Assembly: GCA_017618075.1 (NCBI GenBank)
Contig: JAFZUY010000027.1
Coordinates: forward strand, 16,410 to 80,409
Source of the DNA: Lachnospiraceae bacterium
GTDB taxonomy: Bacteria; Bacillota; Clostridia; Lachnospirales; Lachnospiraceae
Length of the DNA stretch: 64,000 nt
Reading direction: 5' to 3'
Shown: positions 24,510-50,612 of the stretch, piece after piece
Position numbering within the stretch: the first letter of the stretch is position 1
Layout of the letters: every line of letters starts with the position of its first letter
The notes under the pieces: generated by a model
Told to the model about the DNA's origin: nothing
The model's database searches: none
The model's input: the letters and a program-made list of their open reading frames with translations, nothing else
Program-made: the position numbers and the translations under genes

Positions 24510-25718
24510 TTATTCATCAAGACCGAAGATGTCGTGAATTGCGTTAGCTGCTTTCTCTGCATCATTTACGTCGATAAGAACGGTTACTCTGATTTCGGAA
24601 GTTGAAATCATCTTGATGTTGATGTGCTCGTTGTAGAGGCACTCAAACATCTTCGCTGCAACACCGGGGTTAGACATCATGCCGGCACCTACGATTGATA
24701 CCTTTGCAACATTCTTTTCCATTTCGATGTTCTGATATTTAAGTCTTGCCTGATTCTCTTCAAGAACCTTAAGAGCATCTTCACCGAAGTTTCCGTCTAC
24801 AGTAAATGAAATATCCTTTGTATTGTCACGACCTACTGACTGTAAGATCATATCTACGTTTACGTTTGCCTTTGCAAGAGCATCGAATACTCTGAATGCA
24901 GTACCGGGCTTATCTTCAAGACCGATAATTGAAATTCTTTCAGCACTTTTATCTACGGCTACGCCGCTAACAAGCATTTTTTCCACTTTAACATCCTCCT
25001 TAACGATTGTTCCTTCCTCATTTGTAAGGGATGAACGAACTACCAAAGTAACTCCGTATTTCTTTGCCATTTCAACTGAACGGTTGTGTAATACTCCCGC
25101 ACCGAGTGTGGCAAGATCGAGCATTTCATCATATGTGATTTCGTTTAACTTTCTTGCTTTCTTAACAATTCTCGGGTCTGCTGTGTATACACCGTCAACG
25201 TCTGTGTAAATTTCGCACTTGTCTGCACGGAGTGCAGCTGCGATTGCAACAGCAGTTGTATCTGAACCGCCTCTTCCGAGTGTGGTATAATCGTCATATT
25301 TATTTACGCCCTGGAAACCTGTGATGATAACAATCTTACGGCTTTCAAGTTCGTGTGAAATTCTTTCGGTATCAATTCTTTTAAGTCTTGCATTTCCGTA
25401 ATTGGAAGTTGTATGCATGGACACCTGGAAAGCATTTAAGCTGATTGCAGGTACGCCAAGGTTCGCCATCGCCATAGCCATCAAAGCAACGCTTGTCTGT
25501 TCGCCTACTGTAAGGAGCATATCAAGCTCTCTTCTGGATGGGTTGGGATTAATATCTTTTGCTTTTTCAATGAGTTCGTCGGTCATCTTTCCCATTGCCG
25601 AAAGAATAACTACTACATCATTACCTGCATTGTAATCTTCAATACAGCGACGAGCTACGTTATAGATTCTCTCTTTGTTGGCAACAGAAGTACCGCCAAA
25701 TTTCTTAACGACTAACAT
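24510..25718 (-). CDS. lysC: Aspartate kinase
   Basis: 402 residues, first step of the lysine/threonine/methionine pathway. VKKFGGTSVAN at the N-terminus binds ATP, TLGRGGSDTTAVAIAAAL is the nucleotide segment, and two ACT domains fill the C-terminal 140 residues (VSGVAVDKSAERISI; NVAKVSIVGAGMMSNPGVA), the likely site of feedback control. It is the last gene of the hom / ApgM-like / lysC set, 78 bp after its neighbour, and ends at a bidirectional terminator. Confidence 0.96.
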   Translation of the reverse strand: MLVVKKFGGTSVANKERIYNVARRCIEDYNAGNDVVVILSAMGKMTDELIEKAKDINPNPSRRELDMLLTVGEQTSVALMAMAMANLGVPAISLNAFQVSMHTTSNYGNARLKRIDTERISHELESRKIVIITGFQGVNKYDDYTTLGRGGSDTTAVAIAAALRADKCEIYTDVDGVYTADPRIVKKARKLNEITYDEMLDLATLGAGVLHNRSVEMAKKYGVTLVVRSSLTNEEGTIVKEDVKVEKMLVSGVAVDKSAERISIIGLEDKPGTAFRVFDALAKANVNVDMILQSVGRDNTKDISFTVDGNFGEDALKVLEENQARLKYQNIEMEKNVAKVSIVGAGMMSNPGVAAKMFECLYNEHINIKMISTSEIRVTVLIDVNDAEKAANAIHDIFGLDE

Positions 25719-25796: not shown

Positions 25797-26570
25797 CTAC
25801 TCTGCTTCCAAAAAATGATTGGAAAGAAGGTATCCTTCATCATAAAAGAAACCCTTTTCGAGTGCTGTTTTTTCCGAAAATACGGGGTCTCCGTCCTCTT
25901 CCACGGATGAATCGTATAAAAGATAAGGAACGGCTTCTTTTGAATTGCTTCCGAGTCTTACAGGCGTCGGGAATCCGGGCATCAAAAGGAGTCTGAATTC
26001 AGCATCCCTGCCCTGCATCTCTTCTACCAAAGGTCCTACGATATAAGCATCAATGCTTTCAATCGCGGAAATCTTTTTCTCAAGATCCTTGTTTTCGCCT
26101 GCAACACCGGGTGCCTTTACATGAATCATCACGAGATCCATATCATCGTCAAAGAACGCTTTTACAGCCGCATCTTTTTTGCCGGCGTAACTGGTTGATA
26201 AATCTCCTGTCGCACCTTCGGCTTCCATTACGGACAGATTTATTTTCTCCGCTACAGTCTTTATCTTATCATCGGCTGTAACAATTGCGCCTTTTTTACC
26301 CGTGTTCGTATAAAAATCAAAGGATGTCTCCGAAGGTTCATCCTTTAATATATTTTCAATGAGTGAGGGATTATATCCGAGTACAGAAAGAATTGCAACG
26401 TCGGAGGAGGCATCCATTCCTTTGGGAATTGTATGAACGATGCCAAGTTCCGAAACTCTTGCAAGTGTATCGGCATGCGATGTCTTGGCTGCAAAAAGAG
26501 GAGTCTTTCCGCCAAGTTCCTCGAGAGGTTCATCCGACATACCGTCACATATTATAACTACATACTTCAT
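25797..26570 (-). CDS. Shortened ApgM-family (proposed homoserine kinase-like) protein lacking metal ligands
   Basis: 257 residues against about 400 for the family of archaeal-type phosphoglycerate mutases and their bacterial relatives proposed as homoserine kinases. Ends match well: CDGMSDEPLEELGGKTPL (D9 kept), SSDVAILSVLGYNP (S56 kept). The middle substrate domain (about 130-150 residues) is gone, the match resuming at GAIVTADD and EAEGATGDLSTSY. The metal-binding segments are altered: DEAGH has become GVAGE (155-159), PDH has become PGF (198-200) and RTH has become GSN (207-209). By comparison with the superfamily, five of seven metal ligands are lost. It is probably inactive as a mutase or kinase and may be a regulatory or altered-function protein in threonine synthesis. 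Family consensus is from memory. Confidence 0.75.
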   Translation of the reverse strand: MKYVVIICDGMSDEPLEELGGKTPLFAAKTSHADTLARVSELGIVHTIPKGMDASSDVAILSVLGYNPSLIENILKDEPSETSFDFYTNTGKKGAIVTADDKIKTVAEKINLSVMEAEGATGDLSTSYAGKKDAAVKAFFDDDMDLVMIHVKAPGVAGENKDLEKKISAIESIDAYIVGPLVEEMQGRDAEFRLLLMPGFPTPVRLGSNSKEAVPYLLYDSSVEEDGDPVFSEKTALEKGFFYDEGYLLSNHFLEAE

Positions 26571-26600: not shown

Positions 26601-27809
26601 TTAGCAGTCTAAAATACGAATATAATTGATTATCGATGCTTCGTAATTGTCTTTGATTTTAAAGAATTCTTCTTCGGAAATCTTTGCGCTTACAAATCCG
26701 ATTTCATCAGCTTCCGAATCAAGAACTTTCTCTGCTGCAAGACTCTTTGAAATCTCTTCGAAAGAATCTTTCTTTACACGAACGAAATAACTGAAGTATT
26801 TTTCACTGTCTTTAGCAAGAACTGCATCTTCATCCTTCCAGAGACATTCGATTGTTTTCCCCTTATTAACGGCACAGTCAACAATATCTGCCACGATTGC
26901 GGATGCGGTAGCAAGCTTGCCTGCTCCCTGACCATAAAAGAGCGTATCGCCAACCATGTTTCCTTTTACCATAATTGCATTAAACACGCCGCGAACCATT
27001 GAAAGAGGATGCTTATCATTAACTAAGAAAGGAGCAACAATACACATGCACTTTCCGTCTTCCATACGGCTTAAACCGAGAAGCTTAATAGAGGAGTTAA
27101 GTTTCTTGGCATATTCAAAATCCGCCTTGTCGATATTCGTGATACCTTCCGTGCGGATATCCTGATAATGAACAGTTTTGCCACAGCTTAAAGATGTGAG
27201 GATTGCAATCTTTCTGCATGCGTCGTATCCGCATACGTCCGCTTCGGGGTTCTGCTCGGCATAGCCCTTAGCCTGTGCTTCCTTAAGCACTTCGTCATAA
27301 TCGCAGTTCTCTTCATCCATCTTCGTAAGCATATAGTTCGTCGTACCGTTTAAGATACCTGTAATGCTTTCGATTTTCTCTGCGGTGAAGCTTGTGTGAA
27401 GCGGTCTGATGATGGGAATACCGCCGCCTACGCTGGCTTCAAAAATATATGTACAGTTATTTTCTTTTGCAATTTTAAGAAGCTCAGGGCCGTGTTCTGC
27501 CACTACAGCCTTATTGGATGTACACACACTCTTACCCGCAAGAAGAGCTTCCTTGGTAAATTTATATGCCGTCCCGATTCCGCCCAAAGCTTCCACAACG
27601 ATATCAACTTCGGGGTCATCTACGAGAATTTTATAATCTTTTATGAACTTGTCCTGATGAGGATCGCCCGGAAAATCCCTTAAATCAAGTATGTACTTGA
27701 CAGATACCTCATCGCCGGCTTTCTCGCTGACTTCTTTTTTGTTTTTGTCGATTATTTCCACAACACCGCTGCCGACAGTGCCGTATCCCATAACAGCAAC
27801 ACTTATCAT
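26601..27809 (-). CDS. hom: Homoserine dehydrogenase
   Basis: 402 residues from the ATG at 27809, which has an AAAGGAG site; an upstream in-frame extension overlaps the promoter. It reduces aspartate semialdehyde to homoserine. Nucleotide-binding motif VMGYGTVGSG at 6-15, catalytic region GGIPIIRPL, then GILNGTTNYML and YAEQNPEADVCGYDA. The last 70 residues resemble a reduced ACT-type domain (YFSYFVRVK). First gene of an operon with the ApgM-like protein (30 bp gap) and lysC. Confidence 0.95.
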   Translation of the reverse strand: MISVAVMGYGTVGSGVVEIIDKNKKEVSEKAGDEVSVKYILDLRDFPGDPHQDKFIKDYKILVDDPEVDIVVEALGGIGTAYKFTKEALLAGKSVCTSNKAVVAEHGPELLKIAKENNCTYIFEASVGGGIPIIRPLHTSFTAEKIESITGILNGTTNYMLTKMDEENCDYDEVLKEAQAKGYAEQNPEADVCGYDACRKIAILTSLSCGKTVHYQDIRTEGITNIDKADFEYAKKLNSSIKLLGLSRMEDGKCMCIVAPFLVNDKHPLSMVRGVFNAIMVKGNMVGDTLFYGQGAGKLATASAIVADIVDCAVNKGKTIECLWKDEDAVLAKDSEKYFSYFVRVKKDSFEEISKSLAAEKVLDSEADEIGFVSAKISEEEFFKIKDNYEASIINYIRILDC

Positions 27810-50375: not shown

Positions 50376-50612
50376 ATAAAAAAATAACACCCACATAATA
50401 TCCCATCGGATACTAAGGGTGCCATAAGCACGGTTCCACCTTAATTTTTCACTCTTTGAGTCTTTAACGTAACAGCACGGAGACGCTTACTTCTTTCAGC
50501 GTTCGGCTCCAAAGTGGTCTTCATATCAGTCCGGTTAGGCACCTCTCAGCAAATGTTGCCCTCTCTGTGAACTTTCCCTGACACTACTCTCTTTTTCACA
50601 GCCTTTAAACAT
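50376..50612 (-). promoter_or_regulatory. T-box riboswitch upstream of thrS (threonine)
   Basis: Minus-strand leader of about 240 nt filling the 418-bp gap between thrS and the divergent DUF2156 gene. The conserved T-box AAGGTGGAACCGTG is at 50442-50429. It is followed by a terminator stem, CACCC (50421-50417) with GGGTG (50392-50388), an inner AGTATCC/GGGATATT stem, and a T-run. Upstream, stem I shows AGAGAGGGCAAC ... GAGGTGCCTAACC and a specifier ACC followed by A (50518-50515) before CTTTGGAGC. ACC is a threonine codon, matching the downstream gene. Uncharged tRNA-Thr should switch it to antitermination. Confidence 0.93.

Follow-up and report, generated by a model that had tools for sequence, protein, structure and literature searches.

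A short ApgM-type protein without middle domain or intact metal site, encoded between hom and lysC in a Lachnospiraceae genus

The short gene and its locus

The window, that is the whole stretch of 64,000 nucleotides analysed from Lachnospiraceae bacterium contig JAFZUY010000027.1, carries between hom and lysC a shortened gene of the ApgM type, related to archaeal-type phosphoglycerate mutases and to the proposed homoserine kinases of family TIGR02535. Its open reading frame (ORF), 25797-26570 on the minus strand, starts with ATG, has no internal stop and encodes 257 amino acids. Homoserine dehydrogenase is encoded upstream and aspartate kinase downstream, all three genes on the minus strand, so that the ORF shares the location with threonine-pathway genes that marks TIGR02535 members. 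The features are as follows.

24510..25718, minus strand: lysC, aspartate kinase, downstream gene (profile matches)
25797..26570, minus strand: short, middle-domain-less ApgM/TIGR02535-type putative pseudoenzyme, 257 amino acids (ORF, profile matches, ligand alignment, predicted fold)
26316..26363, minus strand: linker, residues 70-85, replacing the inserted middle domain (alignment and model stretches)
26601..27809 (from the second ATG), minus strand: hom, homoserine dehydrogenase, upstream gene (profile matches)

Against NCBIfam TIGR02535 the window protein scored 210.1 bits, below the cut-off of 446.3, and the genome profile search matched it in two stretches, model positions 1-69 and 229-396, leaving 70-228 unmatched. 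In the NCBIfam scan, apgM (TIGR00306) and PRK04200 likewise matched in two stretches and below their cut-offs. Pfam PF10143 was covered over positions 1-33 of 170, compared with 1-170 in the full-length protein of genome G029. The inserted middle domain (approximately residues 70-229 of full-length relatives) is thus absent, as an earlier sequence-only reading of this DNA had proposed; the intact frame flanked by hom and lysC that it described is also borne out. The remaining part belongs to the alkaline phosphatase/metalloenzyme superfamily (PF01676, 92.6 bits; cut-off 24.3), and AlphaFold predicted a confident alkaline-phosphatase core (predicted local distance difference test score, pLDDT, 92.8), the core fold being complete in the model. 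No further ApgM-type gene was found by the TIGR02535 search in the window's genome, which is 89% complete. The sole other match falls in a 534-residue frame, which we take to be gpmI-like.

Loss of the metal site

Seven ligand positions were mapped by alignment onto the two metal sites given for cofactor-independent phosphoglycerate mutase (iPGM) in the excerpted text of PMC5382265 (Asp426/His430/His485 and Asp37/Ser86/Asp467/His468, C. elegans numbering). The equivalents in G029 are D299, H303 and H353 at one site and D9, S56, D343 and H344 at the other. PMC9765024, in the part available, describes the zinc sites as conserved in the TIGR02535-type protein BT2402 and names D9 as an example. 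All seven ligands are present in 21 of the 22 full-length proteins compared, the other one carrying a serine to threonine change. The window protein retains two, D9 and S56; by alignment, D and H of DEMGH have become G155 and E159, D and H of PDH have become G199 and F200, and H of RTH has become N209.

26544..26546, minus strand: D9, ancestral metal-2 ligand, kept in the window protein; E in G008, G010, G026 and the N-terminal piece of G015 (alignment)
26403..26405, minus strand: S56, ancestral nucleophile/ligand, kept in the window protein; lost in G004, G007, G009 and G026 (alignment)
26094..26108, minus strand: GVAGE, residues 155-159, former DEMGH metal-1 motif (alignment)
25971..25976, minus strand: GF, residues 199-200, former D-H of the PDH metal-2 motif (alignment)
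25944..25946, minus strand: N209, former His of RTH (metal 1) (alignment)

The 11 intact short forms found in the genus (see below) retain one to four of the seven ligands, that is, three to six are lost. The H303 and H353 equivalents are gone in all 11 and that of H344 in 10. D9 is replaced by glutamate in three of the 11, as in the split G015 copy, and S56 is lost in four, so that neither is conserved. The changed metal segments and the retained D9 and S56 named by the sequence-only reading therefore hold for the window protein, but the two retained residues do not characterise the clade; the ligands have not shifted in the alignment. G007, which branches deepest in the short clade, retains the most ligands, four, and the split G015 shows losses of the same kind as the intact forms. 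In addition, 41 residues invariant in 17 full-length proteins fall in the deleted part. Judged by sequence, catalytic residues are lost throughout the short clade, as in a pseudoenzyme, and it is strongly supported that the active site is dead.

Distribution and origin of the short form

The genus was sampled with 31 genomes. An intact short form of 255-259 residues is present in 11 of them (G000, the window's own, and G004, G006, G007, G008, G009, G010, G013, G020, G023 and G026); a twelfth, in G015, is split between two contigs. The carriers include the record 'Lachnospiraceae bacterium G41', which is not labelled a metagenome assembly; five other named records were found, all labelled as metagenome-assembled genomes. 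Of the rest of the genus, seven genomes encode a full-length protein over the TIGR02535 cut-off, 11 lack the gene, and in G030 a full-length gene is divided between two overlapping frames (L101:4607-5826, minus strand), reflecting a frameshift or an assembly error.

In a family sample of 397 Lachnospiraceae genomes, 205 had a match; judged by the best E-value per genome, only G000 looks short among the matches listed, and the three other weakest matches (G116, G281, G333) are frames of 414-493 residues. G355 carries a second, partial and divergent ApgM-type frame (280-residue ORF; L208, G355:C182) beside a full-length one; five ligands are covered by it and all are kept.

In the ApgM tree the 11 short forms make up one clade (100/99), adjoining G029 and then G016, both full-length with ligands intact. 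The hom tree places 10 short-form genomes and the split G015 together (97/93), and the lysC tree groups nine short-form genomes with G015 and G029 (96/95). Six of the 11 gene-less genomes were sampled in the hom tree, and all six fall outside the short clade. G030 and G015 were excluded from the ApgM tree and from the selection analysis, although hom and lysC of G015 entered their trees; G010 hom and G007 lysC, cut by contig ends, were excluded, and no lysC came from G001, G013 or G016. The short forms thus have a single origin within full-length relatives. A sequencing artefact or lone deletion, which the sequence-only reading had named as a way to be wrong, is ruled out by a deletion common to 11 genomes.

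Selection and conservation

Ratios of nonsynonymous to synonymous substitution (dN/dS) were obtained by Nei-Gojobori counting. In 15 close short-form pairs (dS 0.09-0.62), dN/dS was 0.072-0.218, and the short form is retained under purifying selection. The same pairs gave 0.010-0.087 for hom and 0.005-0.032 for lysC (10 pairs); three close full-length ApgM pairs gave 0.030-0.048. The other 40 short-form pairs gave 0.083-0.266 where computable (35 of 40), values that are saturated with dS at or above 1.4. The short forms remain intact down to 54% identity, with 92 positions invariant among the 11.

Constraint has moved. In a set thinned to seven short forms (G000, G006, G007, G008, G009, G010, G026), the columns at most three residues away from a ligand show lower conservation than the remaining columns, and in full-length proteins higher conservation. 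In this set the segment GPLVEEMQGRDAEF (179-192) had a conservation of 0.88, compared with 0.61 for another five full-length proteins from the genus and 0.27 for ten from other genera. The segment contains a clade-specific motif.

26004..26015, minus strand: QGRD, residues 186-189, clade-specific invariant motif, also in full-length G029 and G016 (conservation comparison)

QGRD is among 19 residues that do not vary across the 11 short forms, G029 and G016, and that are found in no more than 20% of a further 15 full-length proteins. Being shared with two full-length proteins, these residues seem older than the deletion. A constraint unrelated to catalysis thus seems to predate the deletion, and the two full-length anchors lend support to a function gained before catalysis was lost.

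Homoserine kinase in the genus

None of the 31 genomes has a match over cut-off to ThrB (TIGR00191) or to type II homoserine kinase (TIGR00938), and a separate thrB, which the sequence-only reading had advised looking for, was accordingly not found; among 14 control genomes, 11 were over the cut-off for TIGR00191 and one for TIGR00938. A single TIGR00191 match below cut-off is present in each of 30 genomes. Seven of the 30 were inspected as ThrB candidates (L086-L092) and rejected: two that were scanned are IspE over cut-off (TIGR00154), and the other five we take to be IspE from sequence and neighbours. Two other GHMP matches that were scanned proved galactokinase-like, below every galactokinase cut-off, and the search for the type II enzyme returned weak APH-type matches only. 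No kinase was recognised by eye beside thrC in 14 neighbourhoods.

Threonine synthase is over cut-off in 28 of the 31 genomes, including all 11 gene-less and 9 of the 11 short-form genomes. That leaves 20 genomes without a recognised homoserine kinase, which agrees with the excerpted text of PMC9026213, where 50 genomes, mainly of Clostridia, are reported to have neither ThrB nor ThrB2. From this absence, another, unrecognised enzyme would phosphorylate homoserine in short-form genomes that have threonine synthase.

A 249-residue APH-type kinase (L143:4774-5523, plus strand) is a possible candidate for the hidden homoserine kinase, as a lead only. It is present in 26 of the 31 genomes. These are all 12 genomes whose ApgM-type gene is short or split and 9 of the 11 that have none, together 21 of 23, and 5 of the 8 with a full-length or broken gene. 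It lies beside adhE (over cut-off; the adjacency was read in some genomes only), and its best NCBIfam match, TIGR02172, is far below cut-off. A second APH-type match of about 314 residues has a patchy distribution.

A GHMP kinase that resembles galactokinase but scores under every galactokinase cut-off is encoded together with a cystathionine gamma-synthase-type pyridoxal phosphate (PLP) enzyme (L187:3579-8001, plus strand), a gene order repeated in L183, L184, L185, L188, L190 and L192. Its other neighbours are presumably a channel-like gene and, downstream, dapF; it appears as a sugar kinase in an aspartate-family neighbourhood. A second GHMP gene is absent from the gene-less G011, which speaks against it as the general homoserine kinase.

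Regulatory genes near hom

Of the 31 genomes, 12 encode an ACT-domain protein (NF003361), and in every one of them its gene lies no more than 90 bases upstream of hom. Three examples, each just upstream of hom, are given.

L098:8261-8758, minus strand: ACT-domain protein (NF003361)
L100:3887-4363, plus strand: ACT-domain protein (NF003361)
L154:6387-6830, minus strand: ACT-domain protein (NF003361)

Six of the carriers are gene-less; the other six are every genome outside the clade whose ApgM-type gene is full-length or broken in frame. The protein was not found in the 12 genomes with a short or split gene, in G029 and G016, or in the remaining five gene-less genomes. This absence is a correlation with one clade and no proof of replacement. 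A change in the regulatory tail of Hom was considered and dismissed, as Pfam finds no ACT domain in 10 Hom proteins from inside or outside the clade. Rfam gave no RNA leader on the hom operon at gathering scores.

Relation to known systems

Like the genes of the TIGR02535 'proposed homoserine kinase'/ThrB2 proteins of the BT2402 type, that of the short form lies between hom and lysC; the short form is homologous to these proteins in its N-terminal and C-terminal parts, has the same core fold and falls in one gene tree with them. It differs from them in the missing inserted domain, the loss of three to six of seven ligands and a score below the family cut-off. Archaeal-type cofactor-independent phosphoglycerate mutases (PH0037, 2zkt; Thermoplasma, 3idd/3kd8) have both the inserted domain and the metal site that it lacks. 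With pseudoenzymes in general, i.e. dead regulators or scaffolds, it shares a lost active site with fold and selection kept. In open-licence PubMed Central listings, no report was found of a short or dead form of the ApgM/TIGR02535 family, nor of a pseudoenzyme in TIGR02535 or beside homoserine dehydrogenase. Excerpts of PMC7311316 and PMC9026213 discuss the proposed homoserine kinase, those of PMC9765024 use BT2402 as an example, and those of PMC2964296 survey archaeal-type iPGM in bacteria.

Interpretation

These results suggest, with a probability of roughly 0.6, that the short ORF encodes a pseudoenzyme which has kept a second, non-catalytic job, most likely the binding of an operon partner or a small pathway ligand. 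Alignment and tree show that, in one ancestor within the genus, the ApgM-type protein encoded between hom and lysC lost its whole inserted domain and that its two-metal phosphotransfer site decayed. The remaining alkaline-phosphatase core is predicted to fold still and is held by the purifying selection described above. The full-length ancestor probably had the non-catalytic job already, with the 19 residues including QGRD fixed before the deletion, and the short form may survive because of it. The job would most likely be to bind homoserine dehydrogenase, aspartate kinase or a small pathway ligand, and thereby to scaffold or regulate the flow to homoserine and threonine; operon and clade history would point to a partner or regulator of Hom or LysC. 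The regulatory pseudoenzyme offered among the options of the sequence-only reading fits these data.

Several observations weigh against this interpretation. The short gene took over its place in the operon from the full-length one, and that place is no new proof of a role. The ApgM-type gene is absent altogether from 11 genomes of the genus. No threonine synthase is over cut-off in G000 (89% complete), G006 (96%) or G015 (86%). Short-form dN/dS lies above that of hom and of full-length pairs; constraint is thus partly relaxed, though still clearly present. Whole-protein conservation is 0.61 in the thinned short forms versus 0.80 in the five full-length proteins of the genus, and stretches 43-51, 84-93 and 213-221, otherwise the best kept, are no better conserved than in those full-length proteins. 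The 19 residues were chosen post hoc, and shared ancestry accounts for part of them; two full-length members alone anchor their age relative to the deletion. The metal site was assessed by alignment only.

A more specific history is tentative and perhaps rather doubtful: the ApgM-type protein, while catalytic, would first have been a bifunctional partner of Hom or LysC and then have shed its catalytic half to become a regulatory subunit only, the chemistry falling to an undescribed homoserine kinase, and QGRD and the other residues having been fixed in a clade without the ACT-domain protein. It is unlikely that the gene is instead in slow decay, catalysis being dispensable through another homoserine kinase and the stump, held by operon context only, heading to loss. 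Such decay would agree with the three states in the genus (seven full-length and the broken G030, 11 short and one split, 11 absent), with the faster evolution of the short form than of hom, lysC and full-length pairs, and with the in-frame stop reported for an archaeal-type iPGM gene of C. phytofermentans (excerpt of PMC2964296). However, 11 ORFs stay intact to 54% identity with 92 invariant positions and dN/dS of 0.07-0.22 in close pairs, and one stretch is better conserved than its counterpart in full-length relatives; in the hom tree the six of 11 gene-less genomes that were sampled fall outside the short clade, so loss there did not pass through the short form. With the single origin and the confident predicted fold, the view of the sequence-only reading that this is a genuine retained protein with a dead site rather than simple decay is upheld.

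A non-catalytic role in threonine synthesis might also be ancestral and common to full-length TIGR02535 proteins, the family then perhaps not being homoserine kinases at all. According to the available text of PMC7311316, BT2402 mutants require threonine in minimal medium and BT2402 failed to rescue an E. coli thrB mutant (a personal communication there), and homoserine phosphotransfer by BT2402 is left uncertain; thrC in 28 of the 31 genomes, including the gene-less ones and 9 of 11 short-form genomes, agrees with this. We consider it improbable, as every metal ligand is kept in 21 of 22 full-length proteins, which points to catalysis, and as thrB and thrB2 occur in a complementary manner in the excerpts of PMC9026213. 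Least probable is continued catalysis by the short form, using a single metal or no metal, on homoserine or a different phosphate ester. In its favour, the predicted structure has a complete core fold, G007 has D9, D of DEM and DH of PDH, and the window protein has D9 and S56. Yet no short form has all ligands of either site, G007 coming closest with three of four at site 2 and the serine lost; none of the 11 retains the equivalents of His303 and His353, that of His344 is lost in 10, Ser56 in four and D9 in three, and the deleted part held the 41 residues noted above. The single-metal enzyme allowed by the sequence-only reading is disfavoured on these grounds.

The role of TIGR02535 in threonine synthesis is unsettled, with a genetic need but no E. 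coli complementation in the excerpted PMC7311316. This genus of gut Lachnospiraceae is a natural experiment, with full-length, dead and absent versions in close relatives that mostly have threonine synthase; it separates a catalytic from a non-catalytic role and points to where the hidden homoserine kinase is to be sought.

Other observations

Elsewhere in the window, a T-box leader (Rfam RF00230, 110.6 bits) lies at 50412-50608 on the minus strand. IspE is fused to a DUF1934 domain at L086:3032-4384 (plus strand) and L088:2663-3964 (minus strand), the two proteins tested, with IspE over cut-off in one. Frames of the size of this fusion, 437-453 residues, occur in 13 of the 31 genomes, namely the 11 short-ApgM genomes, G029 and G016.
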